48,508 nucleotides of DNA from assembly GCA_900320225.1 (NCBI GenBank), contig ONRL01000003.1:1-48508 (forward strand), read 5' to 3'. This document shows positions 20,668-43,489 of the stretch, one piece after another (the stretch's first letter is position 1; every line of letters starts with the position of its first letter). The translations under genes and the position numbers were made by a program. A model generated the notes under the pieces. It had not been told where the DNA came from and made no database searches. It saw nothing but the letters and a program-made list of their open reading frames with translations. The stretch is from an uncultured Lentisphaerota bacterium (GTDB lineage Bacteria > Verrucomicrobiota > Kiritimatiellia > RFP12 > UBA1067).

Positions 20668-21216
20668 ATGAAGAAGAAGATTAAGGACGAGGCACAGATT
20701 CTTGTTTACAAAGCCTCGGATGGTAGTGAGTTACCGGTCAAGACAGATGGAGAGACCGTATGGATGGCAATCGACCAGATGGTGAAACTGTTTGGCCGTA
20801 ATCGAACTGTTCTTATTCGGCATGTTAACAATGCGATAAGGGAAGGCGAACTGGACCGAGGGATTAATGTGCAAAATTTGCACAATATTCAGACTGGTCG
20901 TGGCCGTCCTGAATTGATGTACGATCTTGATGTCATGATTTCTGTCGGTTACAGGGTAAAGTCTCCAGAGGGAGTACGTTTTCGTAGATGGGCGACACGG
21001 GTTCTTCGTGAGATGCTTCTTAATCGTGTTGAGGAAATCAGGGAGATTTCTAGATTGAGACGCCGTGTTGACGCAGTTGAAGGTGACATCAAGCAGATCA
21101 AGGGCGGTATGAGCTACCTCGTCCAGCAGCTGACCGCGCCGACATCCTCTACAAGCCGACGGATCGGTTTTGACGGTACTGCCGGCGCACCGAGCAAACC
21201 ATACGGGAAGTCATGA
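20668..21216 (+). CDS. RhuM-family (virulence RhuM/KilA-N-like) DNA-binding protein
   Basis: This 182-residue protein follows the RhuM pattern: VKTDGETVWMAIDQMVKLFGRNRTVLIRHVNNAI is the helix-turn-helix part, followed by YDLDVMISVGYRVKSPEGVRFRRWATRVLREMLL, the family signature. A basic coiled segment follows (RLRRRVDAVEGDIKQIKGGM). Such genes travel with mobile elements and islands and have no settled biochemical role. AAGGAG lies 11 bases before the ATG. A perfect 17-bp palindrome (20868-20884) lies inside its coding sequence. AT-richer than the operons on either side. Confidence 0.8.
   Translation: MKKKIKDEAQILVYKASDGSELPVKTDGETVWMAIDQMVKLFGRNRTVLIRHVNNAIREGELDRGINVQNLHNIQTGRGRPELMYDLDVMISVGYRVKSPEGVRFRRWATRVLREMLLNRVEEIREISRLRRRVDAVEGDIKQIKGGMSYLVQQLTAPTSSTSRRIGFDGTAGAPSKPYGKS
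20868..20884. promoter_or_regulatory. Perfect palindrome TGTGCAAAATTTGCACA
   Basis: Eight-base arms around a central A, inside the RhuM-like gene where it codes VQNLH. Near-identical sites lie at 18946-18962 and 19003-19019. Operator function is a guess. Confidence 0.4.
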
Positions 21217-21241
21217 GAAGACAGCTCGGACCTGTTTTCTC
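21215..21241 (+). terminator. Probable terminator of the RhuM-like gene
   Basis: GAGAAGACAG pairs with CTGTTTTCTC (one G-U pair) around a 7-base loop and overlaps the stop codon. The loop side keeps GGACCTGTTTT, related to the palindrome at 19900-19922. Confidence 0.5.
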
Positions 21242-21537
21242 GGTTGGGCGTGAGGATGGTTGATGATGGGAAAGTGGCAAAAAAGGTCAGACCTGTTTTG
21301 CACATATTGCGATATGTGACGTACCGCGCACGGGATGGAATAAAGTGATGGTTGAAGTTGGAAGATTTGTGGAAGAGTTGAAGGCGGCGGGCATTGGCCT
21401 TTTCGCCGACGTGCTGGTGAGATTTCCATGCGGATGCCACAGTGCGGACAAGGGCGTTTGTGCCAATGACTGTATCAATGAACTGTATCAAAAGGGTCTG
21501 CCCCTTTAAGCCCCCATAGTAACACTAACAGAGAAGA
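21217..21537. other. Intergenic mosaic before the intact DUF4062 gene
   Basis: Contains a second AGGTCAGACCT palindrome (21278-21302), a perfect hairpin CACATAT/ATATGTG (21299-21316), aepY-like fragment F3 (21348-21438), an AACTGTATCAAAAGGG block shared with 20169, and a hairpin AAAGGG/CCCTTT (21491-21507). No intact gene is seen. Confidence 0.65.
21348..21438 (+). pseudogene. aepY-like 5' fragment F3
   Basis: Starts ATGGTTGAAGTTGGAAG and reads ELKAAGIGLFADVL, closely like F2, then switches to the ATTTCCATGCGGATGCC tail shared with F1. Confidence 0.5.
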
Positions 21538-23149: not shown

Positions 23150-23238
23150 ATGCTTTAAGCTGGAAGATTCGTTGACGGGTTGAAGGCGGCGGGCGTGGAG
23201 TTCTTCGTCGACGTGCCGGTGATGTTTCCTTGCGGCAA
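23150..23238 (+). pseudogene. aepY-like 5' fragment F4
   Basis: Keeps GCTGGAAGATTCGTTGACGG and GTTGAAGGCGGCGGGC in common with F1-F3 and ends in the GTGATGTTTCCTTGCGG variant of their tail. It has no open frame of note. Confidence 0.45.
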
Positions 23239-23293
23239 GAAATGATTTTGAGAAAAAAGGTCAGACCTGTTTTCGCACAATTGATGCGTAGAA

Positions 23294-23364
23294 GTGGGCT
23301 TGGGCAAGGTGAAAATGGTATAATATTCGACCTAAACATGAGCGGAGAAATGCACATGCGGAGA
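23294..23364 (+). promoter_or_regulatory. D element, copy 3: promoter and leader of aepY
   Basis: Extended -10 TGGTATAAT with TATAAT at 23319-23324 and no good -35; a transcript would start near 23331. GCGGAG lies 8 bases before the ATG at 23356. This is the only copy that still leads into an intact gene. Confidence 0.7.
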
Positions 23365-24561
23365 CTTGATACATTTCTCACTTGCCTTCAGGCTTCAGGC
23401 GTAACCTTTTTCACAGGGGTGCCGGATTCGTTGCTGAAGAGTTTCTGCGCGTATCTGACCGATACGTGCGGGGCAAACCACATGATTGCCGCGAACGAAG
23501 GTGGCGCGGTCGGGTTGGCCGCCGGGCACTATTTGGCGACGGGCAAGCCTGCGCTCGTGTACATGCAGAACTCGGGACAGGGCAACGCGGTGAACCCGCT
23601 CGCGAGCCTTGCCGACCCGGATGTGTATTCCATTCCGATGGTGCTGCTCGTTGGGTGGCGAGGAGAGCCGGGTGTGAAGGACGAGCCGCAGCATGTGAAA
23701 CAGGGTAAAGTGACCCTCTCGCTCTTTGAGACGCTGGGCATTCCGACCGAGGTGTTGCCGGATGACGAATCTGAAGCGCTGGAACTGACGCGGAAGATGG
23801 TCGAGAGGGCCAAGTCGGAAAAGCGACCTGTCGCGCTGGTTGTCCGCAAAGGGCTCTTCGCAGAATACAAGCTGCAGAACAAAGTTCCTGACATCGCCGA
23901 ACTGAAGCGTGAGGATGCGATACAAGGGATTTTAAGTCCCTTGCCAGACGATGCGGTGATCGTTTCAACGACCGGCATGATCTCGCGCGAGGTGTACGAG
24001 ACGCGGGAACGCCTCGGGCAAGGCCACGCGCGCGACTTCCTGACCGTCGGCTCGATGGGACACGCGATCATGATTGCACTTGGAATCGCCAAGGCGCAGC
24101 CAACGCGCAAAGTCATTTGCCTTGATGGCGACGGCGCGAGCATCATGCATTTGGGCAACATGGCGATTTGCGGACAATCCGGCTGTTCCAACTTGACGCA
24201 CATCGTCCTGAACAACGCCGCCCACGACTCCGTCGGCGGACAGCCCACCGTCGGCGGAAAGATCGACTTTGAGAAGATCGCGGAAGAGCTGGGCTACAAT
24301 GTGTTCCAGTCGCCGCAGGACCAGTACGTCGGAGCCCGTCAACTCGGCGTCGAGGAGGTCGCGGACGGAATGCAGTGGCTCTTGTCGATGGACGCGCTGG
24401 AGGCGCAGTCCGCACAGGAGGCGTGCGATCCTTCTGCGGCGCGCCCGAATTTCATCTTGTTTCGCGTCGCAAAGGGCGCGCGCAAAGACCTCGGCCGCCC
24501 GAAGGAGCCGCCGCAGGTGAACAAGGACAGTTTCATGAAAAACTTGGAGGAAAAGGCATGA
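23356..24561 (+). CDS. aepY: Phosphonopyruvate decarboxylase
   Basis: This thiamine-pyrophosphate enzyme turns 3-phosphonopyruvate into phosphonoacetaldehyde, the step that pulls phosphonate synthesis forward. The 401-residue protein has the family N-terminus TFFTGVPDSLLKSF, the cofactor-activating Glu in AANEGGAVGLAAG, YMQNSGQGNAVNPL, and the TPP/magnesium motif from LDGDGASIMHLG to VLNNAAHDSVGGQ. Upstream in-frame ATGs at 23338 and 23350 are less well placed than 23356 relative to GGAG. Its TGA overlaps the ATG of the PEP mutase fusion (ATGA), so the two are coupled. Several partial 5' copies lie upstream. Confidence 0.93.
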   Translation: MRRLDTFLTCLQASGVTFFTGVPDSLLKSFCAYLTDTCGANHMIAANEGGAVGLAAGHYLATGKPALVYMQNSGQGNAVNPLASLADPDVYSIPMVLLVGWRGEPGVKDEPQHVKQGKVTLSLFETLGIPTEVLPDDESEALELTRKMVERAKSEKRPVALVVRKGLFAEYKLQNKVPDIAELKREDAIQGILSPLPDDAVIVSTTGMISREVYETRERLGQGHARDFLTVGSMGHAIMIALGIAKAQPTRKVICLDGDGASIMHLGNMAICGQSGCSNLTHIVLNNAAHDSVGGQPTVGGKIDFEKIAEELGYNVFQSPQDQYVGARQLGVEEVADGMQWLLSMDALEAQSAQEACDPSAARPNFILFRVAKGARKDLGRPKEPPQVNKDSFMKNLEEKA

Positions 24562-25856
24562 AGAAAGTTTTCATGAGCATGAGTACCGACGTGATTCATG
24601 GCGGACACATCAATATTATCGGGAAGGCTGCTACTCTTGGAGAATTGACTGTCGGTGTGCTGAGTGACGAGACCGTTGCGAGCTACAAGCGGTATCCGCT
24701 TTTGTCTTGTGACGAGCGGATGAAGATAATCGCAGCCATCCAAGGTGTTGCGCATGTGGTGAAGCAAGAAGGATTGTCATATCGTGATCTCATTCATGAA
24801 CTAAATCCAGATATTGTGGTACACGGCGATGATTGGCGAACGGGGATTCAGCAGCCCATCCGGGAGGAAACTGTCAAACTGCTGGAAGAATACGGTGGCG
24901 AGCTTGTTGAGTTCCCATACACGGTCAATGCCGAGTACGAAAGACTGGAGGCAAACGCTCGATCGCAATTGGCCATGCCAGATATGCGCCGCGCGAGGTT
25001 GAAGAAGCTCATCGGGCTCAAAGGACTTGTTACGGCGCTTGAGGCGCACAGTGGCATTACGGGGTTGATCGCCGAGAAGACAACGGTTGTGCAGGATGGG
25101 AAGACGTGCCAATTCGATGCCATGTGGGTGTCATCACTCTGCGACTCGACGGCGAAAGGTAAACCAGACATTGAGCTCGTGGACATGACTTCTCGTTTCC
25201 GTACCATTGATGACATTATGGAAGTGACGACGAAGCCTATTATCTTTGATGGTGATACAGGAGGCCTTGCCGAGCATTTCGTCTACACTGTGCGTTCGCT
25301 TGAACGGATGGGCGTTTCAATGGTCATCATTGAGGACAAATGTGGGCTCAAGAAGAATTCGCTTTTTGGAACCGAAGTGGATCAGACCCAGGATACGATT
25401 GAGAACTTCTCGGAGAAGATACGCGCAGGGAAGAAGGCGCAGAAAACGCGGGATTTCATGATCTGCGCACGCATCGAGAGCTTGATACTTGAACGCGGTA
25501 TGGACGATGCGATTGCTCGTGCGAAGGCTTTCGTGACGGCAGGCGCCGATGCAATTATGATCCATAGTCGTAAGAAAGACCCAGCGGAAATATTCGGGTT
25601 TCTCGAACGCTTTCGCGATCAGGACGTTGTGACGCCAGTGGTGCTCGTTCCCACTTCGTTCAACTCCGTAACAGAGGACGAGTTCAAGCGACGCGGTGCC
25701 AATGTTATCATCTATGCGAATCAACTGACGCGCAGCGGATTCCCCGCTATGCAGAAGACGGCTGAGACGATTCTGTCGAACCATCGTGCATTGGAAGCGG
25801 ATGCCCAGTGCATGCCCATCAAGCAAATCATCACGCTTATCCCTGAGGAGGTCTAG
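24558..25856 (+). CDS. pepM: Cytidylyltransferase-phosphoenolpyruvate mutase fusion
   Basis: PEP mutase rearranges phosphoenolpyruvate to phosphonopyruvate, the entry to nearly all phosphonates. In this 432-residue protein residues about 1-135 are a nucleotidyltransferase of the glycerol-3-phosphate cytidylyltransferase type, with HGGH at residues 14-17 and VHGDDW. Residues about 145-430 are the mutase, with FDGDTGG and the diagnostic EDKCGLKKNS (Glu259-Ser268), followed by ARIESLI. The pairing suggests that the finished phosphonate is activated as a CMP derivative. It overlaps aepY by 4 bases and is followed 14 bases later by the iron alcohol dehydrogenase. Confidence 0.92.
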   Translation: MKKVFMSMSTDVIHGGHINIIGKAATLGELTVGVLSDETVASYKRYPLLSCDERMKIIAAIQGVAHVVKQEGLSYRDLIHELNPDIVVHGDDWRTGIQQPIREETVKLLEEYGGELVEFPYTVNAEYERLEANARSQLAMPDMRRARLKKLIGLKGLVTALEAHSGITGLIAEKTTVVQDGKTCQFDAMWVSSLCDSTAKGKPDIELVDMTSRFRTIDDIMEVTTKPIIFDGDTGGLAEHFVYTVRSLERMGVSMVIIEDKCGLKKNSLFGTEVDQTQDTIENFSEKIRAGKKAQKTRDFMICARIESLILERGMDDAIARAKAFVTAGADAIMIHSRKKDPAEIFGFLERFRDQDVVTPVVLVPTSFNSVTEDEFKRRGANVIIYANQLTRSGFPAMQKTAETILSNHRALEADAQCMPIKQIITLIPEEV

Positions 25857-25870: not shown

Positions 25871-26776
25871 ATGATGACGTTCGGAAAAGATGCGTCGGCT
25901 AGGTATCTGGTGCCTAGGCTGGAGGGGAAGCGCAGCATTGTCCTCGTGACGGGGCGTACATCGTATGCGGTCTGCGGCGCAGAGGCGTTTCTTTCGCCCT
26001 TCCTTGCGCAGAAGAACATTGTACACCTGACGACAGTCGGAGAAAATGCTCGGGCGGAAGATGTAGCGGAAAAGAAATCCCAACTTCCTGAACATGTGGA
26101 TGCTTACATCGCCGTAGGGGGGGGGACGGTAATCGATACCACGAAATTGCTGCGCGGCTTGGAAGGAGAATTGCCCCCATTCTTGGCAGTCCCGACGACA
26201 GCGGGTACAGGCGCTGAAACAACCCGTTTCGCTGTTTATTACGAACAGGGAAAGAAGATGTCGGCCGATGATGTTCGATATCTTCCGACTGACCAACTGC
26301 TCATACCCGAGTTCACGGCCACACAGACGCCTTATCAACGAGCCAGCACAGAATTTGATGCGTATGCACAGGCGGTTGAATCGCTGTGGGCGGTGGGGGC
26401 CACAGACGAATCTCGATCTTTCGCCCAAAAGGCTCTTTCGCTAATGGCGGCGGGCGAACAGATGCTTGGTTCCTACTGGGCAGGACGGGCGATTGACATT
26501 TCCCGCACGACGGCGGCGCATGCACTTTCATATTACATGACGGCAACATACGGTATTCCGCACGGCCATGCGGTCTATATGATGTTTCCCTATGTCTGTA
26601 AGGCGAACGGCCGAGACGAATTCATTAAGGATGTACCTGAACTTCAGACGCTTCGCGAGTTCGCGGAGGTCAAGGGACTTGATTGGGATAAACTCGTGGC
26701 GGCATTGCTGGCAAATGTCAATCCGACTCGTCTGGCAAATAATCCCATGCCGATAACACGTGAATTGTTTGGATAA
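25871..26776 (+). CDS. Iron-type alcohol dehydrogenase, probable phosphonoacetaldehyde reductase
   Basis: This 301-residue protein has the iron-ADH nucleotide motif AVGGGTVIDTTKLL, the segment PTTAGTGAE, the substrate-side FDAYAQAVESLW, and metal ligands in TTAAHALSYYMTATYGIPHGHAV. These match phosphonoacetaldehyde reductases, which give 2-hydroxyethylphosphonate. Usual length is about 360-390; loops and the last C-terminal residues appear shortened, but the active-site blocks are all present. No 2-aminoethylphosphonate transaminase gene is seen in the cluster, which supports a hydroxyethyl rather than aminoethyl product. ATG at 25871 (GGAG 8 bases upstream) or 25874. Confidence 0.8.
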   Translation: MMTFGKDASARYLVPRLEGKRSIVLVTGRTSYAVCGAEAFLSPFLAQKNIVHLTTVGENARAEDVAEKKSQLPEHVDAYIAVGGGTVIDTTKLLRGLEGELPPFLAVPTTAGTGAETTRFAVYYEQGKKMSADDVRYLPTDQLLIPEFTATQTPYQRASTEFDAYAQAVESLWAVGATDESRSFAQKALSLMAAGEQMLGSYWAGRAIDISRTTAAHALSYYMTATYGIPHGHAVYMMFPYVCKANGRDEFIKDVPELQTLREFAEVKGLDWDKLVAALLANVNPTRLANNPMPITRELFG

Positions 26777-26780
26777 GATT

Positions 26781-28076
26781 ATGTTTGGTTATTCAGAGCA
26801 AGATTATAGACGCTTCCATGCTTTTGCGTGGCGGTATCTGATGCTGTTCTCGGTGCTGTACTGCTTCCTCTACTGCACGAGGCTCAACCTCTCGAACGCT
26901 GGTGCGGTGATGATGAAAGGGCTGGGGTGGAGCAAGGCCGATTTCGGCATCCTCACAGGTGCGCTCTTCTGGGCATACGGCATTGGACAGTTCGTCAACG
27001 GGCGTCTGAGCGAAATCGTAGGACCGGCAAAGTTCGTTGTTGCGTCGGTGGTGCTGTCAGTGGCAACGAATGTGCTATTTTCGTTCCAGAGTTCCATCAT
27101 CGTGATGGCGGTTCTGTGGGGATTGAACGGTTATTTTCAATCTATGGCGTGGACGCCAGGTGTGGCAATTCTCACCAAATGGTGGCCAGGGCCGACACGT
27201 GGCTTTGCAACGGGGCTTGCACATGCTTTCTCGGGTTTCGGTCAGGTGGCAGCCATTCTGTCCGTTGCATTCGCGTTCAAGGTCTTGCCGAGCCTCGGTT
27301 GGCGATCGGCATTCCTCATCTCAGCCGCGTTTCCGCTCGTTGTGCTCATTGCCTATTTGGTTTGGGCACGAACTTCACCCACGCAAATTGGCTTGGTCGA
27401 GTATGTGGAGGATGACCCGGCTCGTGCCCGGCTTGAGACCGAATTGCAGGTACTCGTGAAACAGCGTGGCAAGCTCTATCCGTACAAGTATGTGTTGTCC
27501 AATCGGCAGTTCATGATCTGGGTCATAATAGCTTTCATCACGGGATTGGCTCGTTACGGACTCGTCACCTGGGTGCCACTCTACTTCGTCGACCGCTTCA
27601 ATATCAGCGTGACAAGTGGTCTGATGGGGTCGTTGTCGCTTCCAGTGGGCATGGGGATCGGGACATTGGTGGTACCATGGCTCACGGACAAATGGTGTCC
27701 AAACAACCGTCTCCCCGCTGTCATCGCCAGCGCGCTGATCGGCGCGGCGTCGATTGGCAGTTTTCTGCTGTTGAATCCGAGGGTGGGTTGGCAGATGGCG
27801 TGCGTGCAGGCGTTACTGTTTATCGCAGGTTTCTGCATTTACGCAATCAATGGGACGGCTTGGGCCTACGCCACCGACATCGGCGGACGCGTGTTCTCGG
27901 CCACGTCATCGGGTGTTCTCAATTTCTCCGCCTACATGGGTGCTGCGGTGCAGTCGTTCGTCTACGGGTTCCTGCTTGACAAGATTGGCTGGATGTCCGT
28001 ATTCGCCTCTCTCGCGGTCCTTTGCGCGCTCATGGCCGTTATGGGAATCATGGGGAAGAAGAAGTCAGTGCTGTAA
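26781..28076 (+). CDS. MFS transporter of the organophosphate:phosphate antiporter type (GlpT/UhpT-like)
   Basis: This 431-residue protein has about twelve hydrophobic segments and the N-terminal pattern FLYCTRLNLSNAGAVMMKGLGWSKADFGILTGALFWAYGIGQ in pieces typical of GlpT/UhpT relatives, with RGFATGLAHAFSGFG and a C-terminal GTAWAYATDIGGRVFSATSSG. Relatives exchange sugar or glycerol phosphates for phosphate. In this cluster it could carry a phosphonate intermediate or a precursor; direction is unknown. ATG at 26781 lies 4 bases after the stop of the dehydrogenase gene. No strong ribosome binding site was seen, so coupling to the upstream gene is likely. Confidence 0.82.
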   Translation: MFGYSEQDYRRFHAFAWRYLMLFSVLYCFLYCTRLNLSNAGAVMMKGLGWSKADFGILTGALFWAYGIGQFVNGRLSEIVGPAKFVVASVVLSVATNVLFSFQSSIIVMAVLWGLNGYFQSMAWTPGVAILTKWWPGPTRGFATGLAHAFSGFGQVAAILSVAFAFKVLPSLGWRSAFLISAAFPLVVLIAYLVWARTSPTQIGLVEYVEDDPARARLETELQVLVKQRGKLYPYKYVLSNRQFMIWVIIAFITGLARYGLVTWVPLYFVDRFNISVTSGLMGSLSLPVGMGIGTLVVPWLTDKWCPNNRLPAVIASALIGAASIGSFLLLNPRVGWQMACVQALLFIAGFCIYAINGTAWAYATDIGGRVFSATSSGVLNFSAYMGAAVQSFVYGFLLDKIGWMSVFASLAVLCALMAVMGIMGKKKSVL

Positions 28077-28161: not shown

Positions 28162-29442
28162 ATGTCAAAACTAGTCTATGTCGCGATGTCTGCGGACATC
28201 ATCCATCCCGGCCATCTGAACATCATTAAGGAAGCGTCGAAACTCGGCGACGTGACAGTGGGTGTACTCACCGACGCCGCAATCGCGAGCTACAAGCGCC
28301 TCCCGTACATGAACTACGAGCAACGTGCCGCCGTGGTGGCGGCACTGAAGGGCGTGACGCGTGTCATCCCCCAGGAAGAGCTCAACTACATCCCCAACCT
28401 CTTGAAACTCAAGCCGGATTTCGTTGTACACGGAACAGACTGGCGGGAAGGGGTGCAAGCCAAGACGCGCCAGGGGGTGATTGATACGCTTGCTCAATGG
28501 GGCGGCAAGCTTGTTGAGCCAGAATATACTCCCGGAATATCATCCACGCAGTTGAACAAGGCCATACGCGAGGTTGGAACTACGCCCGACATCCGCCGCG
28601 CGCGCCTGCGGCGCCTCCTGAACGCCAAACCAATCACGCGCATTCTCGAAGCCCACTCGGGTTTGACGGGCTTGATCGTCGAGAATACCTCCGTGAAGAA
28701 GAACAACCGCAAGTATGAGTTCGACGGCATGTGGCTGGGATCGTTTGCGGATTCCGTTCTCAAGGGCAAGCCTGATACCGAGAGCGTGGACGTAACGTCG
28801 CGCCTCCGTACGCTCAATGACATCCTTGAAGTGACGACCAAACCCGTTATCTATGACGGCGACTCGGGCGGCACCTCCGAGCAGTTTGCGTTCCTCGTGC
28901 GGTCGCTGGAGCGCTTGGGCGTCTCCGCGGTCGTCGTCGGCGACAAGGCAAACCAGTACCGGGGACTGTCCGACGGTGCGTCCGTGCAGCAGCTTGACGT
29001 GGCCAGCTTCAGCCGAAAGATCCATGACGGCAAGGAGGCGCAGATCACTGACGACTTCATGGTCGTGGCCCGTTGCGAGTCGCTTGTTTCCGGAAACGGT
29101 GTGGAAGATGCGCTCGCCCGCTGCCGCGCCTACTTGGAGTCGGGAGCGGACGGGATCCTGATGCAGTCGAAATCCGATACGCCTGACGAGATCCTGTCAT
29201 TTGCCAAACGTTTCCGCGCGGAGGTCTCCGCCGACAAGCCGCTCGTGGTCATGCCCACCTCCTATCCGCAAATCACGGAAGGCGAGCTCGCCGCCGCCGG
29301 CATCAACATCGTCATCTACGCGAACCAGCTCGTCCGCGCCGCCTGCCCCGCGATGCGCCGTTGCGCCGAGCGCATCCTTGAATGCGAACGCGCACAGGAG
29401 GTCGAGAATGAGATTTGCATGCCGCCGGAGGCGGGTCTCTAG
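28162..29442 (+). CDS. Cytidylyltransferase fused to a PEP mutase-like domain lacking the mutase signature
   Basis: This 426-residue protein is a full-length paralogue of the fusion at 24558. The N-terminal transferase domain keeps HPGH and VHGTDW and looks intact. In the C-terminal isocitrate-lyase-superfamily domain DGDSGG and ARCESLV are kept, but the loop that should read EDKxxxKxNS reads [13 protein letters not shown]: Glu becomes Gly260 and the Asn-Ser pair and second Lys are gone. Mutase activity is therefore doubtful; a lyase, hydrolase or binding role is possible. Codon use is GC-richer than in the first copy, so it is probably an old, separately acquired paralogue. AAGAAG precedes the ATG. 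Confidence 0.85.
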
Positions 29443-29527: not shown

Positions 29528-30958
29528 ATGGATTACACAGTTCAGAAACTTGGTCCAGTTAAAGATGTTTGCATAAAACTGCGGCCGCTTACTGTTGTTT
29601 GTGGAAAGAATAATACTGGTAAGTCATACATTACATATAGTTTGTATACGTTATTAGAATTTATGAAGACCCAGTTGTGTGATGTATTCGATGGAGATAA
29701 GAGCCGCTCTTTTCTTCAAACGGGCGAATGTTCTGTGAATTTGAATGACATTATTTTACGGTATAATTTGCTTGGGAAGTCAGAGGAATTGTTATGTAAA
29801 TTCAAGGAAACTTTACCTCGACAACTGCTTCTAGAAAAAAGTACTTTTGAGGAATCATTCTTTAATCTGACTTTAGATGGAAAGGATGAAGAGTTACTAG
29901 ACAAAGAAATAAAGTCACGTCATTTCAATTTTCCAATTAAATTGACCTCTGAGTATACGGTTCGTTTTATAAAACGTTCTGGGCAAACGATTTTACGACT
30001 GATTCTTGAGCCAACCGTTCAACCTGATATTGATATAGTGGCAAGGCATGAAGCAGCTAAGCCATTCTTACCTGCATCAGGGAATATTCTTAAGCAAATT
30101 ATTCCGCTTGTTAACATTGTTATAAGTAGCTTCTCGATTAATAATTTTATTATTACATGTGAAAGGACAGGGGTTGCAACCTTTAGACCAGAATTGAGTT
30201 TGTTAAGGGATTTTGTATATAATGCAGGTCAGGACAAAGCGAATCGCTTTAGCGATTTGAAATCTCAATCGGAGTTCAAAGGTTATTCACTTCCAATTGA
30301 GAAGGAACTTGAGTTTGCTTTGCATATTCCCTCTTTGCTAAAACGAGAGTCGTCCGATGATATAGTGTTGAGGGAAATTATGCCTTTTTTTGAAGAGATT
30401 GCCAGCGGTAGTTATGTCTCTAAAGACAATACTGATAGTGTAATTTATTATCGCCCCTTAAGAACAGATATACATCTGCCAATGTCGGTTAGTTCAAGTT
30501 CTGTACGTACTCTTTCGGAATTGTTTTTCTACCTTAAGTTTAAGGCAAAAGTTGGGCAGACTCTCATGATTGATGAACCAGAGTTAAATCTTCATCCGTC
30601 AGCCCAACGAAAGATGGCGCGATTGTTTGCGAGATTAGTGAACTGTGGGATAAATGTTTTCATAACAACACACAGTGATTATTTGATTAGAGAGTTGAAT
30701 GCGTTAATGAGCATGAGCAACATTCCAGAACATAGAAGATCGTCATTTCTCAAAGAACATGATTATCAAGAGAATGATTTATTGACTCGAGATAAAGTTG
30801 GTTGCTATGTTCTAGATGATGGTGTCGTTACAGAGGCTGAATATAATTCCGCTTATGGGTTTGCGGTTGAGAGCTTTGATGATACCATTCTTCAGTTTAA
30901 TAAATTGTATAACGATTTGCATTCCTTGAAAGAAGAGGATGAAGATGCAAGGGATTGA
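29528..30958 (+). CDS. OLD/AAA_21-type ATPase of a candidate two-gene defence system
   Basis: This 476-residue ATPase has Walker A CGKNNTGKS (Lys32), a signature-like SSSVRTLSELFFYLK, Walker B LMIDEPELNLHP (Asp349-Glu350) and the switch His in ITTHSDYLIREL, the set seen in OLD, PARIS and Septu ATPases. No nuclease domain is attached. The gene is AT-rich against its neighbours (19 of 60 bases G or C at 29821-29880) and has its own promoter, both signs of transfer. It overlaps the next gene by 14 bases. Family membership is clear from motifs; the defence role is inferred from the type of pair and island-like setting. Confidence 0.85.
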   Translation: MDYTVQKLGPVKDVCIKLRPLTVVCGKNNTGKSYITYSLYTLLEFMKTQLCDVFDGDKSRSFLQTGECSVNLNDIILRYNLLGKSEELLCKFKETLPRQLLLEKSTFEESFFNLTLDGKDEELLDKEIKSRHFNFPIKLTSEYTVRFIKRSGQTILRLILEPTVQPDIDIVARHEAAKPFLPASGNILKQIIPLVNIVISSFSINNFIITCERTGVATFRPELSLLRDFVYNAGQDKANRFSDLKSQSEFKGYSLPIEKELEFALHIPSLLKRESSDDIVLREIMPFFEEIASGSYVSKDNTDSVIYYRPLRTDIHLPMSVSSSSVRTLSELFFYLKFKAKVGQTLMIDEPELNLHPSAQRKMARLFARLVNCGINVFITTHSDYLIRELNALMSMSNIPEHRRSSFLKEHDYQENDLLTRDKVGCYVLDDGVVTEAEYNSAYGFAVESFDDTILQFNKLYNDLHSLKEEDEDARD

Positions 30959-31580
30959 AATAATAAGAGACTTACTGGCGCAAAGTGTCAAGAAGTACAA
31001 TCATGTTGGCAGAATGATTACATGTGAAGAAGCATATTTGCAGTTTAGGCCTTCAAGGCAGACTTTTGAAATGGAGGAAACAGATCCGTCGGCGACGTTA
31101 AAGAAAATATATGTGACGTCATTACCAGATGACAGTATGATATTGAAACCTGATAACTTTGGCGTTCGCTTTTTCAAAAGTGGGACATGGAATAAGGCGT
31201 GTGACTACCTCTTCCTAGTAAGGGTGAGGGGTGACAGTTATGCGATTTTCATTGAACTGAAAAGTAGCCTTAATGACATGCCAGATAGTTTTGACAATCG
31301 CCTTGTTATAGTTTCAAATGAAGACCGGAAGAAAGAAATGCAACTGCTAGGTGGTGAAGCGTTATTTGATTATATTAAAGTTATTGCGGAGAAACATTCT
31401 TCGCCAAATGACCTCTCCCAATATAAAACTAGGATGTGGGTCTTGTATGAGTCGATACGTCCGAGAAGTCCTACAAGAGCAGGTATCATGTTGACGGCAC
31501 AAGAGCGAATCAAGTCAAATAAAGTTCTCACGAAGAAGGTTCACGATGCACAAACAATTTCTATAGAGGATCTTATTTGA
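30945..31580 (+). CDS. Small PD-(D/E)XK-like protein, partner of the ATPase
   Basis: This 211-residue protein is not one I recognise by name. It contains CDYLFLVRVRGDSYAIFIELKSS, in which Asp87, Glu104 and Lys106 are spaced like the D...ExK core of PD-(D/E)XK nucleases with two adjacent beta strands. The C-terminal region is basic (RIKSNKVLTKKVHD). ATG at 30945 is preferred over 30939 because GAGG then lies about 6 bases upstream. Same AT-rich composition as the ATPase and translational overlap with it. A nuclease effector triggered by the ATPase is the leading idea. Confidence 0.7.
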   Translation: MQGIEIIRDLLAQSVKKYNHVGRMITCEEAYLQFRPSRQTFEMEETDPSATLKKIYVTSLPDDSMILKPDNFGVRFFKSGTWNKACDYLFLVRVRGDSYAIFIELKSSLNDMPDSFDNRLVIVSNEDRKKEMQLLGGEALFDYIKVIAEKHSSPNDLSQYKTRMWVLYESIRPRSPTRAGIMLTAQERIKSNKVLTKKVHDAQTISIEDLI

Positions 31581-31645: not shown

Positions 31646-32881
31646 ATGACGAGATTTTCACCCATGTTTGCATACCTTGATCCGGGATCGGGGAGTGCTT
31701 TGGTGGGAACGTTGATTGCCGTTGCGGGGGCGGCGATGTTCTCGGTCAAGTCTTTTGTCTACCGACTGCTGCGCAAGGAGCCGTTGGTGAAAGAGATTGA
31801 ACCAGATATTGCAATCTTCAGCGAAGGAAAGAATTACTGGGGAACTTTTCACCTGTTGGTAGAGGAGTTGATTACGCGGAAGATCCACTTCGCCTATTAC
31901 TCCCTTGATTTGCACGATCCGGCCCTTTTGATTGACAGCGAATATATGCACGCGCGCCTGTTCGACAAGAACAAGTCGGCCTCGTTCGCTCGTCTCTTGA
32001 AAATCAAGGCGAAGATTCTTTTGGCGACAACGCCAAATATTGGGACGCCCGGCTATCCGCTGAAACGTCCTGCGGGTGTTGAGAAGATGGCGCATGTCTT
32101 TCACGCCTTCGCCGACATCTCGGCTTACCACATCGGCAGCCTTGATAACTACGACATTGTGCTGACGGTGGGCTCCCACCAAGAGAAATACATTCGCGAG
32201 GTGGAATCCAAACGCGGACTTCCCCCAAAGCGGCTAATACCCATAGGGCTTCCGTACTTTGACGAGCAATTCTTGAAGAAACAGGATATGGAAGCGGTAT
32301 CGTCACAGAGCAGAGGGCGGAAAACTATTCTGGTTGCGCCGTCATGGGGGGCAAAAGGTTGTCTTCGGGAGTATGGCATGGATTTCGTTATCGCGTTGGC
32401 CAATGCGGGATATTGTGTTATCATTCGTCCTCATCCGCAATCATTCATTGCCGAGTCGGATTTTATTTCTGAATGCCAAAAGAAGACGGAGCCATATCCT
32501 AATATTGTTTGGGATACTGAAACGATTGGAACAAAGGTGATGGAGGCGTCTGACATGTTAATCTCTGACACATCGTCCATTCGTTTCGACTATGCGTTCT
32601 TGTACGGGAAGCCCGTCATCACGCTCAATATCCCTCGAACAAGCCAGACGGAGTATGAGGGAGTTAATATGTCGGAAATCTGGACGGACGTCGCCGCGCC
32701 GCGTCTGGGAAGGGTTCTGGGAAAAGATGATATTGGGGATATTGTAGGTGTTGTTCGTAGTGTCTTGGACATCATGTCTACCTCGGATGAAGTCATCGCG
32801 TTTCGGGCGGCTACAATCACCAACCTCGGCACGTCCGCACATGCGATTGCGGAGTTCCTTGTCAAGGAAGCGGAGGTCTGA
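31646..32881 (+). CDS. CDP-glycerol glycerophosphotransferase-like (TagF/TagB family) protein
   Basis: This 411-residue protein has an N-terminal membrane segment after FAYLDPGSGSALVG and a C-terminal transferase domain with LVAPSWGAKG, RPHPQS and SDTSSIRFDYAFLYGKPVI, the TagB/TagF pattern. Such enzymes take a CMP-activated alcohol phosphate and join it to a membrane-linked glycan. Next to a cytidylyltransferase-phosphonate cluster it is a reasonable acceptor of a CMP-phosphonate, though CDP-glycerol is the known donor. Start at 31646 or at the in-frame ATG at 31664; no clear ribosome binding site favours either. The next gene starts 2 bases after its stop. Confidence 0.82.
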   Translation: MTRFSPMFAYLDPGSGSALVGTLIAVAGAAMFSVKSFVYRLLRKEPLVKEIEPDIAIFSEGKNYWGTFHLLVEELITRKIHFAYYSLDLHDPALLIDSEYMHARLFDKNKSASFARLLKIKAKILLATTPNIGTPGYPLKRPAGVEKMAHVFHAFADISAYHIGSLDNYDIVLTVGSHQEKYIREVESKRGLPPKRLIPIGLPYFDEQFLKKQDMEAVSSQSRGRKTILVAPSWGAKGCLREYGMDFVIALANAGYCVIIRPHPQSFIAESDFISECQKKTEPYPNIVWDTETIGTKVMEASDMLISDTSSIRFDYAFLYGKPVITLNIPRTSQTEYEGVNMSEIWTDVAAPRLGRVLGKDDIGDIVGVVRSVLDIMSTSDEVIAFRAATITNLGTSAHAIAEFLVKEAEV

Positions 32882-32883: not shown

Positions 32884-35505
32884 ATGTTTGAAGCAGTTAT
32901 TTCCGCCTACCGTTGGTTCTTCCTTCAACTTGCCGGGGTCGTCGGACTCGGATGGGGTATCGTATTACTCTCTGTCATTTGCTCGTTGCTGATGATTCCG
33001 CTCATGCGACTTGTAGCGGGCGTGGTCAAGCGCGAGGCGGACTATCAGTCCGTTATCCTTCCGCAGCTGTCAGACATCAAGTCGCGGTACGAAAGCGATG
33101 TCGACCGGCATCTGCACATCCAGCGTCTCTATCGGCGTTATGGCTATTCGCCGATTTCAGCCGTCAAGAAGGTGCTGCCGCTTTTCGTGCAGATTCCATT
33201 CCTTTTTTTGACCTATTTTATGTTGAAGGATACAGTTGAGTTGCGCGGCGTGTCATTCCTCTTTCTTAAGGACCTTGGTCAGCCTGACGCGCTGATGACG
33301 ACATTCAATGTGAACGTCCTTCCAATTGTGATGACGTTCGTCAATATCGTTACGGTGTTTGCAACGCCCGGCTTTACGTCCCGCGACTGGACTCAGGCCA
33401 TTGGTATCAGCCTTCTGTTCCTTGTATTGCTTTATACGGCACCTTCGGCATTGCTTCTCTATTGGACGCTCAACAACGTAATCACGATGGTGCGTACGTT
33501 TGTCAATGATCGTGCTGCTGGCGCACGACTTTTGGTCGGACGTATTGTGGGGCTGAAGAATCTGCCTTCTGTGATTCGTCAGCGCATGACGGAACAAGCA
33601 TTGGGTGTGATCGGAATGGTGACATTCCTTTTGGCTCTTTATTTGCGCTTGATGGTTCTGGCAGAAGTCTGGTTTTTCAACTACATGGCAGGATACTGGT
33701 TCATGGTTGAGGTTCTCGCCGTATCAATTGGAATCAATTATCTGCTTCTTCGCCGTCAGTCACGACTCGTCCGGGGTGTGTCACAAGTGGGTATGTGGGT
33801 ATCGACCATTGCCGCCGTGTGTATCTTGGCGGCGCTTTGCTCGATTGTGTTTACGCAGAAGGTGATGATGTTCATGACGCAGAAAGTCAAATTGACTATC
33901 GTATTTGATCTTTTCTTGATCGTGTGGGTACTACCCGTTCTGATGGATGCTGGTCGTCGTCTGAATACTGTGTGGCAGTCCCTGAAGACTGCATTTAGTC
34001 GGGAATGGCACTGGCTTGTTGCTGTCTGTATCTTGACGATCCACTATTCCTTTGCGAGCGCTAATTTCAAACTCCCCTTTGATTCCGTTCTGCTCCTTGG
34101 CGTGTACATGCTTCTGCCATGTATGATCCTGATTGTCTTTGCCATTGTCGCCTACAATCGTTACTGTGACGCATCTTTTCTTTTCAAGCTGGTTGCCGGC
34201 GTATGCATCGGGGCATATTTGATTCCGATGATTTCGCTTGAGCAGGGGAAATTGCTCGGTTGGGGTAGCAATCTTCTGCTTCGGCTCGTGCTCATGGGCA
34301 TGGTGGCCGGTGCCTTGCTCTATCTCAAGCGCGCAAAACCAGTGCGCGTGTTCATTGCTTTGCTCGCAGTCATTTCGTGCGTGAATGCCTGGATGTCAAA
34401 GCATCGCCTTTCAGCAGAAACGGATGAGCGACAGGTGGTGTCCGAAGGGTCGGCGGCACAAAAGGCAATGTCCGCCCTGCCCTGCGTGCACAGTAACAGC
34501 GTCTACTTGTTGCTCTATGACGGGTACATGCATGACATCAATCTCGAAGGGATGCGTATCAAACATGGGGAAATCGGCAAGTGGCTCAGGTCAAAAGGAT
34601 TTACGCGTTATGATGCCTATTCCACTGGAGATGGAACGGTTGCAAGCATGGGGGCTGCGTTTGCCGTCGGCGATGTCGTTCAGGGTTCGGACCGCTCCAT
34701 GCTTTCGGGCAACAATGCCTTTTGCGATTACTTACGCCGGTTCGGCTACAAGACATATTATGTAATCAATGGGTATGAAATGCCAAAGCGTGGCGAACGA
34801 ACGCCGGGCGACTACTATTTCCCAAGTCCGCAGGAAATCACTCGCCCCGAGATGGTTCTTTTCCCCTGTATTGTGAGGGGTATTCTCTCCCAGTCCGCGA
34901 ATACGTTCAACGAATATACGGAAGAAGAATGGCAGGCAGAGAAACTTGAAGTGTTCAAGAAAATGGGCGCCAATGGAAGTTTCATCTATGCACACTCGCA
35001 TGTGCCGGGACATGTGATTTCAAATCCAGTCTATCGAAAGAGCCCTGAAATCGAGAAGGCCCAGTATGAGGAGCGTGTCGCACAGGCAGATGCGGAGATC
35101 CGCCGTGATGTAGAATTGTTGCTGGACAAGAATGACGATGCTATCATCATTGTTGCCAGCGATCACGGTTCACATCTTTCGCTCCCAGAGAAAATGGGAG
35201 AGTATGATGCATTCACGTTGTTGGATCGCCTCGGCATCCAACTGTTTGTGCGTTGGCCACATGACTACAAACCTTGCTTGAAGCTTCATTGTCTGAAGAA
35301 CCTCTTCCTTGAAGTCATGATTTACATGAGCGGTGACACTTCGATCGCCAAGTTTGAGTCACAGGGAGAATCCCTGCGAGTCATGGCTCCTCTGCGCGCG
35401 CCTGCAGGAACGGTAAAGAATGGCATCATACAGTCTGGAGTGGATAAGGGCAAGAATCTCTTTGAGGCAGCCAGGGAACGTGCAAAGCAGTGGATGGAGA
35501 AGTAG
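32884..35505 (+). CDS. YidC/Oxa1-like membrane domain fused to a sulfatase/phosphoglycerol-transferase-like domain
   Basis: Residues about 1-215 of this 873-residue protein look like the YidC/Oxa1 insertase core: LPQLSDIKSRYESD, VLPLFVQIPFLFLTYFMLK and SALLLYWTLNNVITMVR. A long membrane region follows (about 240-500) and then a globular domain with VYLLLYDGYM, DAYSTGDGTVASM, AHSHVPGH and IIVASDHGSH, which fits the alkaline-phosphatase/sulfatase fold of LtaS and phosphoglycerol transferases; Asp in LLYDGYM and the DHGSH block would bind metal. Lies between a TagF-like gene and an aminotransferase gene, so a glycan modification role is likely. Confidence 0.8.
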   Translation: MFEAVISAYRWFFLQLAGVVGLGWGIVLLSVICSLLMIPLMRLVAGVVKREADYQSVILPQLSDIKSRYESDVDRHLHIQRLYRRYGYSPISAVKKVLPLFVQIPFLFLTYFMLKDTVELRGVSFLFLKDLGQPDALMTTFNVNVLPIVMTFVNIVTVFATPGFTSRDWTQAIGISLLFLVLLYTAPSALLLYWTLNNVITMVRTFVNDRAAGARLLVGRIVGLKNLPSVIRQRMTEQALGVIGMVTFLLALYLRLMVLAEVWFFNYMAGYWFMVEVLAVSIGINYLLLRRQSRLVRGVSQVGMWVSTIAAVCILAALCSIVFTQKVMMFMTQKVKLTIVFDLFLIVWVLPVLMDAGRRLNTVWQSLKTAFSREWHWLVAVCILTIHYSFASANFKLPFDSVLLLGVYMLLPCMILIVFAIVAYNRYCDASFLFKLVAGVCIGAYLIPMISLEQGKLLGWGSNLLLRLVLMGMVAGALLYLKRAKPVRVFIALLAVISCVNAWMSKHRLSAETDERQVVSEGSAAQKAMSALPCVHSNSVYLLLYDGYMHDINLEGMRIKHGEIGKWLRSKGFTRYDAYSTGDGTVASMGAAFAVGDVVQGSDRSMLSGNNAFCDYLRRFGYKTYYVINGYEMPKRGERTPGDYYFPSPQEITRPEMVLFPCIVRGILSQSANTFNEYTEEEWQAEKLEVFKKMGANGSFIYAHSHVPGHVISNPVYRKSPEIEKAQYEERVAQADAEIRRDVELLLDKNDDAIIIVASDHGSHLSLPEKMGEYDAFTLLDRLGIQLFVRWPHDYKPCLKLHCLKNLFLEVMIYMSGDTSIAKFESQGESLRVMAPLRAPAGTVKNGIIQSGVDKGKNLFEAARERAKQWMEK

Positions 35506-35509
35506 ACCA

Positions 35510-36637
35510 ATGAAGCGATTTAGCAATCCGATCTTGGTCACGCGGCCATATTTGCCGCCGCTTGAGGATTTTAAGCGAGGGTGTGAGGAAATTTGGTCGA
35601 ACCAGTGGCTCACGAACAACGGGCCAATCCTGAAACGATTTCAGCAGGAACTGTCGCGGTACCTGGACGTGCCGGAGACGAACCTTGCGCTCTTCAACAA
35701 TGGGACGCTTGCGCTGGAATTGGGCTACTACGCGATGGGACTTTCGGGTAGCGAGGTCATCACGACGCCATTTACTTTCGTGGCGACGAGTCATGCGCTC
35801 GTGCGTATCGGGGCGAAGCCGGTATTTGCGGATGTGGATCCTGAGACGATGTGCCTTTCGCCTGAGGCGGCGGAGAAGTTGATCACGTCACGGACGAAGG
35901 CCATTGTTCCGGTGCATGTGTACGGGAATGTGTGCGATGTGGAAGGATTCGCGAGGCTTGGCGAGAAGTATGGCGTGAAGATCGTTTACGATGCGGCGCA
36001 TGTGTTTGGAGTGTTTAACCGTGTAGAACATGTAGATCGTGTAGAAAAGAAAAGCATTGGGTGTTGTGGGGACATGAGTATGTTCAGCTTTCACCCGACG
36101 AAATTGTTCCACTCATGCGAGGGTGGGTTGTTGGTGTTCAAGGATGCGAAGGTTCAGGAGAAGTTGCATGAACTTCGTAACTTTGCAATTCACGGCGAGT
36201 TGAGCTGCACGGATGTTGGGACCAACGCGAAGATGAACGAGTTGCAGGCGTTGATGGGTTTAGAGTGCCTGAAGAAGATAGACGATCTGCTGGACTATCG
36301 GCAGAAGGTTTATTCGGCGTACGCAGAGGTGTTTTCTGATTGCCCCGAAGTGAAACTCGTACCTTACTCGCAGAACAAGGCATACGTGCCAGTACTGTTC
36401 AAGGATTTCGAAACTCGCGAGCGCGTGTATACGCAATTGCAGGAGAAGTGCAACGTGTTCTCCCGCCGTTACTTCTATCCGCTCTTGACGGACTTTGCAC
36501 CTTACGCATACGCTAAGGGCTCATGTCCGATTGCCGAAGATCTGGCTTCGCGCGTTCTGACACTTCCCACCTACTACGGCCTGCCGATTGAGGATGTGAG
36601 GGCGATTGCGGAGAATGTGAAGGAGATAGTGGGTTGA
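35510..36637 (+). CDS. DegT/DnrJ/EryC1/StrS-family sugar aminotransferase
   Basis: This 375-residue PLP enzyme has the family N-terminus around ILVTRPYLPPLEDF, FNNGTLALELGYYAMG, TPFTFVATSHA, YDAAHVFG and the PLP-binding lysine in SFHPTKLFHSCEGG (Lys198). It would make an amino sugar, usually from a 4-keto nucleotide sugar. Start 35510 lies 4 bases after the upstream stop. Between YDAAHVFGV and SIGCCGD there is an insert encoded by a 9-bp tandem repeat (36020-36046). Its stop overlaps the TTG of the ATP-grasp gene. Confidence 0.9.
   Translation: MKRFSNPILVTRPYLPPLEDFKRGCEEIWSNQWLTNNGPILKRFQQELSRYLDVPETNLALFNNGTLALELGYYAMGLSGSEVITTPFTFVATSHALVRIGAKPVFADVDPETMCLSPEAAEKLITSRTKAIVPVHVYGNVCDVEGFARLGEKYGVKIVYDAAHVFGVFNRVEHVDRVEKKSIGCCGDMSMFSFHPTKLFHSCEGGLLVFKDAKVQEKLHELRNFAIHGELSCTDVGTNAKMNELQALMGLECLKKIDDLLDYRQKVYSAYAEVFSDCPEVKLVPYSQNKAYVPVLFKDFETRERVYTQLQEKCNVFSRRYFYPLLTDFAPYAYAKGSCPIAEDLASRVLTLPTYYGLPIEDVRAIAENVKEIVG
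36020..36046. repeat. 9-bp tandem repeat inside the aminotransferase gene
   Basis: CGTGTAGAA, CATGTAGAT, CGTGTAGAA encode RVEHVDRVE, replacing a shorter loop in relatives. Confidence 0.75.
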
Positions 36638-40360: not shown

Positions 40361-41883
40361 AGACCGCTGTTGTGATTGGTGCCGGCCCGGCCGGGCTTAC
40401 GGCCGCCTACGAGCTGGTCGAGAAGGGCGGGACGGACTGGAAGGTTGTCGTGCTGGAGGCGTCGCCGTACATCGGCGGCATCTCGCGCACGGCCGTGCAT
40501 GGCGACTGCCGGATCGACATCGGTGGACACCGCTTCTTCTCGAAGTCGCAGGAGGTGAACGACCTGTGGGCGAAGCTCATGCCCGTACAGGGACAGCCCT
40601 CGAAGGATGACCGCCTACTGAACCGTCCGTGCCACGTGGAGGAGGGCGGGCCCGATCCCGAGACGTCCGACCGCGTGATGTTGCGTCGCCACCGCGTGAG
40701 CCGCATCTACTATCTGCGCCACTTCTTCAACTATCCGATTTCCATCAAGCCCGCCACGTTCCTCGCGATGGGACTCGTCCGCATCTGGAAGGCCGGCTGG
40801 AGCTATCTCTGGTCCGCGTTCTTCAAGCGGAAGGAGAAGTCGCTCGAGGATTTCTACATCAACCGCTTCGGCAAGGTGCTCTACTCGATGTTCTTCGAGG
40901 ACTACACGGAGAAGCTGTGGGGCGTCCATCCCTCGAAGATCGATCCGTCCTGGGGGGCGCAGCGCGTGAAGGGGCTGTCCCTGTGGAAGGCGCTGCTGAA
41001 CGTGTTCATCCCGAAGGGCGGCAAGAAGGAGACGTCCCTCATCGAGGAGTTCCTCTATCCGAAGAAGGGACCGGGACAGCTCTGGGAGACGTTGGCCGAC
41101 GATCTCCGCGCGCGCGGCGTGGAGATTCGCATGAATGCGTGCGCCGCCCACCTGAAGACGGAGTCCGGACGCGTGACGGAAGTGGGACTCGCGGACGGTA
41201 CGTCAATTCCCTGCGATGCCGTCTTCTCGTCGATGCCGGTCAAGGATCTCGTCGCGGCGTTTGACGCGCCGCCCGCGGATGTGGCGCGGATCGCGTCCGA
41301 ACTGCCGTATCGCGACTTCATCACCGTGGGTCTCCTCGTGGATCGTCTTGCAATCAAGAACACGACGAACTTCGCCACCGTGAACGACATCGTGCCGGAC
41401 ACGTGGATCTACGTGCAGGAGAGGGACGTGCGGTTGGGACGCATCCAGGTGTTCAACAACTGGAGTCCGTACATGGTGGACGACGTGACGAAGCACGTGT
41501 GGGTGGGGCTGGAGTACTTCTGCTCGGAGGGAGATGCGTTCTGGACGATGGATGACGATACGTTCACTGAAATGGCGGTGAAGGAGTTGCGCCAGATCGG
41601 CGTGCTCGCGCCCGACACGCCCGTCCTTGACTCAGTCCGCCTCCGCGTGAAGAAGGCTTACCCGGCCTATTTCGGCTCGTATGCGGAGTTCGGTATCGTG
41701 CGTGCGTGGCTTGACGGTTTTGCGAATCTCTACTGTATCGGCCGTAATGGGCAGCACCGCTACAACAACATGGACCACTCAATGCTTTGCGGTCTTGAGG
41801 CCGCCCGCGCGCTTGTGAACGGGACGGACAAGTCAGCAGTCTGGAATGTCAACACGGAAGAAAAGTATCATGAAGGGAAATGA
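40357..41883 (+). CDS. FAD-dependent oxidoreductase/mutase-like protein (protoporphyrinogen-oxidase or UDP-galactopyranose-mutase type)
   Basis: This 508-residue flavoprotein begins [20 protein letters not shown] (GxGxxG FAD site) and [16 protein letters not shown], with [11 protein letters not shown] and a C-terminal FAD-contact segment [16 protein letters not shown]. These are marks of the amine-oxidase-like family found in polysaccharide loci, related to UDP-galactopyranose mutase. Its precise reaction is unknown. It overlaps the GT2-GtrA gene by 4 bases and is strongly GC-rich (41 of 60 at 40921-40980), unlike the genes on either side, so the locus is a patchwork. Confidence 0.82.
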
Positions 41884-43489
41884 AAAACATTCTAGGGGCA
41901 TTCTGTCCTTGGTTTGGCAATCTGCCATTAAAGATTATGATGGCATCTTGACGACAAGTGCGGTGCCTAGGTCATTAGGTTGGTTCTTGATATGTTCGCT
42001 TTCCATTGTAGTAGCACTGCTTGTGAACCTTTCAGTTTCAATGCGGATACCAATTTTCACATTCCCTCTTTGGTGTCTCGTAACTTTTATTGTCCTGTCA
42101 AAGGCCATAAAGGTGTTTTATTTGGATTGTTGTCTAGGCGCGCCTTCTAAAGATCAACCACAGTTCTCTTGGAGATTCGTTTCAATTCTTTTCATAATGT
42201 ATGTAATGCTCTTATGTATTAATGGTTATTCTGCGAGTACGGATGTCGAAGGACAATGGGCTCAGGCGCAACAGGGAAAGTTTACGGATTGGCATCCTTT
42301 TTTTCATAGTATGTTCTTCTGGATGATTCAACAGGTCTGGGACAGTAAGGTATTTGCTTGCATTATTCAAATTATGTTGTTTGTACTTGTTGTTGGTTGG
42401 ATAGAAGTGACTTTGCGGAGATATGCGATACTAAGATGGATTCGTATACTCATTATTATCCTGGTGGCATTCTCGCCAGTAATGCTTTCAATTGGGATGC
42501 GCACATTGACAAAAGATTCGTTGTTTGCAATCGCAGTAGTCTCTCTCATGGCGGCGCTTTTTCAGATTGCATGGTCTGAAGGGCGGTGGCTTGAGTCTTG
42601 GTGGCATAAATTTCTTTTTTCGTTCCTCATTTTGTGTGTTTCGTATTTGAGGCACAATGGTATTTTCATAACCATACCGATTTTGCTACTGTTTTTTTTC
42701 ATGGTTTTCACGACGAATCGGGTAAAGGTGGGTCATTATATTGTGACTTGGCTTCTTTCAGTTGCCCTTTTCCTTGGGTATTTCTGCGGGCGAAACTTAT
42801 TGATTGAGAAGGGGGTTATTGGAAATAATGCGGGGCAGAAATATGTCGAGGCAATTGGCGTGCCTATTGCCATAATTGGAGAGGTCATGATATCAAACCC
42901 AGATTCACTCGACCAGGAAACTAGGCGATTTTGTGAAAGATTATGTCCACTGAGAGATTGGAAGATGTATTTTCGTGGTGATGGAAACAGTATTAAGCCC
43001 TATTTAGATTTTGATTATCTTCAACGAGAAGTTCCTCCATGTGAATTTGCCAGGCATTTATGGCACATTGTTAAGGCCTCTCCTAAAGATGCCTATAAGG
43101 CGGCTAAGCACATTACGAGTATCGCCTGGGATCCTTTCCCGTTGGCGAAATTCTGGCGAACACCATCTAAAGGAAACATATTGCGTACAAGTGATTGCTT
43201 CGCCGTATGTGATTTGGTATTACATCCCCCTGTTGGGTGGATGTTTGGCGCACCTGGATTCGCCTTGCTTTTACTTATGATCTCTGGCGTCGTGTCATGG
43301 TTAAAATTCGGTGTGGGAAGGGCGATGCCTCATTTGGCTCTAATCGCTTATCTTTTAGGAACTGGGCTGTTGATGTATGATAGCGGGATAAGTGATTTTC
43401 GATTCTATTGGGCAATTGAACTGGCATATCCAATTGTAATATTGGGCTCATGCCAAAAAAATGAAAATACAGATTGTGGAAACGCTTAA
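41870..43489 (+). CDS. Polytopic membrane protein, GT-C-like glycosyltransferase or polymerase
   Basis: This 539-residue protein has about eleven hydrophobic segments. A loop between the early helices reads [16 protein letters not shown] and [14 protein letters not shown], an acidic-plus-His arrangement seen in GT-C and DUF6020-like glycosyltransferases and in some Wzy-type polymerases. A large soluble part lies near residues 310-440. The start at 41870 is preferred over 41846 because GGAAG precedes it. AT-rich (23 of 60 at 41881-41940). It ends 29 bases into the flippase gene. Confidence 0.65.

Follow-up and report, generated by a model that had tools for sequence, protein, structure and literature searches.

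YidC-type proteins are known for the insertion of membrane proteins. In the window, by which we mean the whole stretch of 48,508 nucleotides analysed here, a YidC-like core and an alkaline-phosphatase-fold (AP-fold) domain are encoded by one gene in a glycan locus, and this raised the question of what a core of the YidC/Oxa1 type does on such an enzyme. An earlier note on this DNA had suggested that the insertase fold may have been reused as a lipid-facing groove for glycolipid modification. The gene has the following parts:

32884..35505, forward strand: the whole fusion gene (873 aa), with YidC-like core, about 9 transmembrane (TM) helices and AP-fold (sulfatase-type) domain
32950..33504, forward strand: YidC/Oxa1 core, residues 23-207 (Pfam 60KD_IMP, TIGR03592, alignments to YidC structures of the PDB, family alignment)
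33559..34413, forward strand: about 9 TM helices, residues 226-510 (hydropathy, positive-inside count, alignments)
34486..35481, forward strand: AP-fold domain, residues 535-866, predicted to lie outside the membrane (PF00884, conserved columns, fold matches)

The fusion 32884-35505 is one real and intact gene. The frame was open across all 873 codons, as the earlier note had claimed. The GC content by codon position was alike in all three parts of the gene and in the TagF-like gene upstream, and a GGAGG ribosome site was found before the ATG.

The assignment of the N-terminal part to the YidC/Oxa1 family, also made before, was confirmed by profile searches. Pfam 60KD_IMP (PF02096) matched residues 23-207 with an E-value of 1.7e-23 and 83.8 bits (cut-off 35), and the NCBIfam model yidC_oxa1_cterm (TIGR03592) matched the core with 90.9 bits compared to a cut-off of 84.3. 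Solved YidC structures in the PDB were found from the core sequence with E-values down to 9.4e-13. In the family alignment, the cytoplasmic C1 region and lipid-facing motifs such as LYW-TxxN were kept in the cores. At the position of the groove arginine (R366 in E. coli, R73 in B. halodurans) the window core has Ser34. The core of a second fusion, from a genome that we call G277, has Asn at this position, cores fused to TagF-like domains (see below) have Lys, and housekeeping YidCs have Arg or Lys. The positively charged groove residue of the YidC family is absent from both the window and the G277 core. An AlphaFold2 model calculated without YidC homologs in the alignment was of low confidence for residues 1-225 (pLDDT 33-63 in blocks of 10 residues), and the single-sequence model of the fusion (pLDDT 39.5) was of no use. 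No YidC was among the matches of the fold search, which is uninformative since the model was poor over the YidC part.

The genome of the window has a separate gene for an ordinary YidC (about 608 aa) at another place, and we conclude that the fusion is not the housekeeping insertase of the cell. A separate housekeeping YidC was present in every fusion-carrying genome that was checked. Hydropathy and positive-inside counts placed the C1 region and the C-terminus of the core inside and the AP domain outside. The inside position of the core C-terminus agrees with the TagF-like domains that sit directly behind the core in other proteins, as TagF-like domains use cytoplasmic nucleotides.

The many further helices that had been noted between core and AP domain were seen in the hydropathy profile. 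Residues 226-510 comprise two linker helices followed by a 7-helix part, of which the last five or so align with relatives lacking YidC. In the C-terminal domain, Pfam Sulfatase (PF00884) matched residues 570-797 with 26 bits (cut-off 25), and with 29.5 bits when the domain was scanned alone. The predicted metal and nucleophile residues are D546, T585, H704, H710, D760 and H761. In the alignment of relatives D546, H704, H710, D760 and H761 were invariant or nearly so, and residue 585 was Thr or Ser. The AlphaFold2 model made without YidC homologs was built on relatives of the AP part, mostly from Chloroflexota. Its closest solved folds were YejM/PbgA, EptC, MCR-1, EptA and LtaS, and also sulfatases. 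Foldseek matched the model to PbgA with an E-value of 3.4e-7. Structural comparison with VIA gave a Z score of 17.7 to YejM and of 15.5-17.7 to headgroup transferases and YejM, which topped the ranking with sulfatases within about 1-2 Z behind. No match to the AP domain was found in the PDB at the sequence level. The metal-binding, sulfatase-type domain described in the earlier note was recovered by these comparisons.

Glycan genes do surround the fusion, as had been stated. The locus is more specifically a phosphonate locus, a point absent from the earlier note. The genes next to the fusion are:

23230..24561, forward strand: thiamine-pyrophosphate enzyme, predicted phosphonopyruvate decarboxylase
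24558..25856, forward strand: cytidylyltransferase-like domain (PF01467) and PEP mutase no. 1, in which the motif EDKCGLKKNS is intact
25871..26776, forward strand: iron alcohol dehydrogenase, PsrA-like, predicted phosphonoacetaldehyde reductase
26760..28076, forward strand: MFS transporter of the GlpT/UhpC organophosphate group
28162..29442, forward strand: cytidylyltransferase-like and PEP mutase-like protein no. 2, without the Ppm motif EDKxxxxxNS
31646..32881, forward strand: TagF-like transferase (PF04464; 35.5 bits, cut-off 22.1), with a membrane segment AYLDPGSGS at the N-terminus
35420..36637, forward strand: DegT/DnrJ aminotransferase, the first downstream glycan gene

A PEP mutase with the EDKxxxxxNS motif (EDKCGLKKNS) and a nucleotidyltransferase (the fused PF01467 domain), which together define a phosphonyl tailoring (Pnt) locus, are both present. 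From known phosphonate pathways, the upstream gene set predicts CMP-activated 2-hydroxyethylphosphonate. PEP mutase-like protein no. 2 is 47% identical to no. 1 and has [11 protein letters not shown] at the EDKxxxxxNS site. From its sequence it is probably a copy with altered chemistry or a regulatory copy. The TagF-like gene ends 2 bases before the fusion gene. The DegT/DnrJ frame overlaps the end of the fusion gene with its start, and the real start may be further downstream. DegT is followed by genes for an ATP-grasp protein, an epimerase, a GT2-GtrA protein, an oxidoreductase, a Wzx-like flippase and GT4 proteins.

Some further genes of the window were recorded. Between the PEP mutase and TagF-like genes (29528-31580) lie an AAA_15/AAA_21 ATPase and a 213-aa partner without Pfam match. 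Their third-position GC of 0.32-0.41 is far below that of the neighbours, and they look like an inserted foreign pair, perhaps for defence. Just upstream of the phosphonate genes (20668-23025) a RhuM-family gene is followed by a gene for a protein with DUF4062, HATPase_c_4 and Fic-like_C domains; these are possible mobile or defence genes. The glycan locus also encodes, at 41846-43489, a protein of 547 aa that is rich in hydrophobic stretches and matched no Pfam family.

The earlier note had let its reading depend on the occurrence of the fusion in relatives, and had proposed to look for the same domain pair beside TagF-like genes. Among 387 Verrucomicrobiota genomes we found a second, independent YidC-AP fusion in the distant genome G277. 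This protein of 892 aa consists of a YidC core, helices and a diverged AP domain, which matched Sulfatase with an E-value of 0.0055 when scanned alone. The adjacent TagF-like gene shares 31% identity with its counterpart in the window, and both proteins start with AYxDPGxGS. Genes for a PEP mutase-NTP transferase and an NTP transferase-aminotransferase also adjoin the G277 fusion. The YidC-AP fusion is rare, not unique.

A search with the two TagF-like proteins of the window and G277 revealed a different fusion, in which a YidC core stands in front of a TagF-like domain. Such proteins of about 620-630 aa were found in five genomes (G078, G126, G256, G302 and G395), and the YidC core was recognised with E-values of 3e-25 and 7e-23 in the two proteins that were scanned. 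The gene order in G078 is aminotransferase, cytidylyltransferase-PEP mutase, YidC-TagF, a small ORF with AYIDP, and an AP-fold membrane protein. The order in G126 is the same as far as the contig extends, with only the start of the AP-fold protein seen. In G302, YidC-TagF is followed by an NTP transferase and an AP-fold membrane protein, and in G256 a convergent AP-fold protein gene adjoins YidC-TagF. An AP-fold membrane protein is thus encoded next to YidC-TagF in four of the five genomes (complete in G078, G256 and G302, partial in G126). G302 has a second, different membrane protein with AP fold (sulfatase-type) beside the YidC-TagF locus (L059:2129-4072).

A PEP mutase gene adjoins four of the seven fusion genes (window, G277, G078 and G126), compared to an expectation of 1.6e-4 per gene. 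At the level of genomes, five of seven carried a PEP mutase versus 19 of 387 (p = 3e-6, a value that ignores kinship). Most PEP mutase loci of the phylum are without a YidC core. Six of the seven fusion loci have an AY[IL]DP segment, either within TagF or in a small ORF close by; it is part of TagF in the window and G277 and a small single-helix ORF beside YidC-TagF in four loci. Short hydrophobic segments of the type AY[ILV]DP[GS] were located at L061:9209, L062:9902, L060:4927, L063:10862, L058:8107, position 31673 of the window and L043:11770, and a small ORF of this type also precedes a standalone TagF-like gene in another genome (G244).

The survey for fusions covered mainly Verrucomicrobiota, with a thin sample of other phyla. 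With the thresholds used, and without a positive control, no YidC-TagF protein was found in 151 genomes of Chloroflexota or in 44 genomes of the phylum of G508. Viral contigs, phages and plasmids contained no relative of the fusion; the matches there were ordinary YidCs and one AP protein without YidC. Viral contigs were also scanned with two YidC profiles for additional alignment rows, and the only locus returned, which was chimeric and aligned badly, was left out. On a contig of the viral collection (L080:3-1049), a YidC-like core follows a sequence that gives the impression of an MFS transporter in one open frame, which may be chimeric.

The cores of the window and G277 are 37% identical over 186 aa, have two short insertions in common and formed a clade with a support of 98/94. 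The TagF-fused cores formed a separate clade (100/100). The node that joins both clades had a support of just 46/79, and branches were long. Direct homology between the AP domains of the window and G277 was not found (hhalign probability 7%, phmmer E-value 0.08). By their sequences the AP domains may come from different subfamilies, in which case the two AP fusions could have arisen independently or through domain replacement. Among 162 genomes of the order, only one (G018) contained the AP part; the copy there is 40% identical, lies at the edge of a contig and has a DegT-type gene behind it. This contig begins at the AP domain, and a YidC fragment on another contig of the same genome is the C-terminus of a separate protein. 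When 84,980 species were scanned for the AP part, 21 loci emerged, mostly in Chloroflexota. Complete relatives have about 550-600 aa with seven helices and the AP domain, and are without YidC.

The YidC core is fused to a TagF-like domain in five genomes and to an AP domain in two, so that its carrier can be the cytoplasmic enzyme or the outer one. Recurrence of the same parts while the fusion partner of the core changes is a classical sign of functional linkage, and the core is very probably linked in function with the TagF-like and AP-fold enzymes. As judged from the comparison of these loci, the YidC-like core is a module shared within a system of several parts, not a one-off fusion.

Starting from what was seen directly, which is the genes, their domains, their recurring co-occurrence and the alternative fusions, we propose that the gene product belongs to a membrane machinery which decorates a surface glycan with a phosphonate or a related phosphoryl group. 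We regard this four-step scheme as possible, with a chance that comes close to even. The group would here probably be 2-hydroxyethylphosphonate. From what is known of the families, PEP mutase, decarboxylase and dehydrogenase would produce the phosphonate, and the fused cytidylyltransferase would convert it to the CMP ester. The membrane-attached TagF-like enzyme would then load the group, on the cytoplasmic face, onto a lipid or a lipid-linked acceptor. In the third, hypothetical step, the YidC-derived domain, with its hydrophilic groove that is open to lipids, would take up the lipid-linked group and help it to the outer side; plain presentation of the lipid without flipping would also be covered by this step. 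Finally, the outside AP-fold domain would pass the headgroup to the glycan. Enzymes of the EptA, LtaS and MdoB type transfer headgroups from lipid donors.

The order of the transferases inside and outside the membrane, together with a groove of the YidC type, suggests a path in which a lipid receives the group inside, the groove helps it across and the glycan takes it over outside. Reuse as a lipid-facing groove also fits with four observations: both AP fusions have lost the groove arginine, a housekeeping YidC is encoded separately, lipid-headgroup transferases are among the nearest folds, and YidC has been reported to scramble lipids (PMC10491306). Scrambling by E. coli YidC was seen in reconstituted vesicles and ran through the insertion groove in simulations, in which other Oxa1 proteins scrambled lipids as well (PMC10491306). 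Since scrambling by insertases is general, a dedicated flippase is not implied. The YidC domain is not essential to the chemistry, as AP relatives in Chloroflexota and elsewhere and most PEP mutase loci are without it, and the group that is moved need not be a phosphonate, as PEP mutase is missing from the neighbourhood of three of the seven fusion genes. A true role of the YidC-derived domain in hand-over or flipping of lipids has, in our view, a little less than an even chance. The earlier interpretation is partly supported: YidC identity, AP-fold metal site, glycan context and pairing with TagF stood, and the lipid-facing groove has the tentative status just given.

The YidC-like core could instead be a mere membrane dock for the TagF-like and AP enzymes, with no role in transport or lipid handling. 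The core's fusion with either member of the same enzyme pair, the retained C1 region, which could bind a partner, and the lost groove arginine of the AP fusions are all consistent with this. However, a five-helix core is an odd anchor for an AP enzyme that has its own helices and a TagF-like enzyme that has the AYxDP segment, and lipid-facing motifs such as LYW-TxxN have been retained. We consider a mere dock unlikely, though worth serious attention. A specialised role of the core as insertase or chaperone, either for its own AP domain or for the small AY[IL]DP membrane protein nearby, is rather improbable. The family is known for insertion, the single-helix protein beside YidC-TagF in four loci resembles a YidC-type client, and the TagF-fused cores keep a groove Lys like some housekeeping YidCs here; but all these genomes have a housekeeping YidC, the AYxDP segment belongs to TagF in the window and G277, the groove position is Ser or Asn in the AP fusions, and relatives of the AP family manage without a dedicated insertase. 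An ordinary second YidC that was fused to a neighbouring gene by chance would explain the score above the curated family cut-off, but is highly improbable in view of the divergent core with its long branch, shared insertions and lost groove residue, the phosphonoglycan operon context and the recurrence of the same partners in distant genomes. That the fusion is an artefact of assembly or frame, as a fragmented draft genome (5.2 Mb in 351 contigs) might suggest, is practically out of the question given the uniform codon-position GC over the whole ORF and the upstream gene, the clear ribosome site and the independent fusion in G277.

In its most specific form, the lipid hand-over reading would make this branch of YidC/Oxa1 a dedicated lipid-headgroup transfer module (a scramblase or a groove for hand-over) that links a cytoplasmic CMP-phosphonate/CDP-alcohol transferase with an AP-fold transferase outside, in a previously undescribed phosphonyl-glycan machine; this is a tentative proposal, to which we give somewhat less than an even chance. 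No description of the arrangement was found in open-access full text (YidC with phosphonate, sulfatase or CDP-glycerol). To our knowledge, lipid scrambling of the YidC type has no dedicated biological use in bacteria. The alternative fusions tie the YidC fold to enzymes on opposite sides of the membrane, often in phosphonate loci, and allow a direct test of the groove as a carrier of lipids or headgroups. Phosphonates on bacterial glycans are a major form of dissolved organic phosphorus, and if the proposal is true, the genes are candidates for the steps that attach them.

For phosphonate loci, nucleotidyl activation has been described and the steps after it were called enigmatic (PMC6697681). 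Like the window, the Pnt loci have Ppm fused to PF01467 or PF12804 and surrounding glycan genes; unlike in the window, YidC, sulfatase or TagF are not mentioned in the text (PMC6697681). Residues ~386-866 of the fusion are closest to the Chloroflexota-type 7TM-sulfatase proteins (BCY19513.1 of Leptolinea HRD-7 and others), with about 26-29% identity, which differ in having no YidC domain and are annotated as hypothetical. With EptA/EptC/MCR, LtaS/LtaP and YejM/PbgA, the AP part shares the AP fold, the active-site pattern of D, T, H and DH, and the outside position on a helical membrane domain, a likeness that is one of predicted fold and that sulfatases fit nearly as well. In contrast to these transferases, which have five helices, the AP domain of the window is preceded by about seven helices and two linkers, with the YidC core in front. 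The core itself resembles the YidC/Oxa1 insertases (PF02096, TIGR03592) in its set of five helices with C1 region, at about 30-37% identity, and in the YW-T-N motif of the last helix. It differs from them by lacking the periplasmic P1 domain, by the exchange of the groove Arg to Ser34 and by two short insertions common only to G277, and it is joined to an AP enzyme in a cell that also has a normal YidC.
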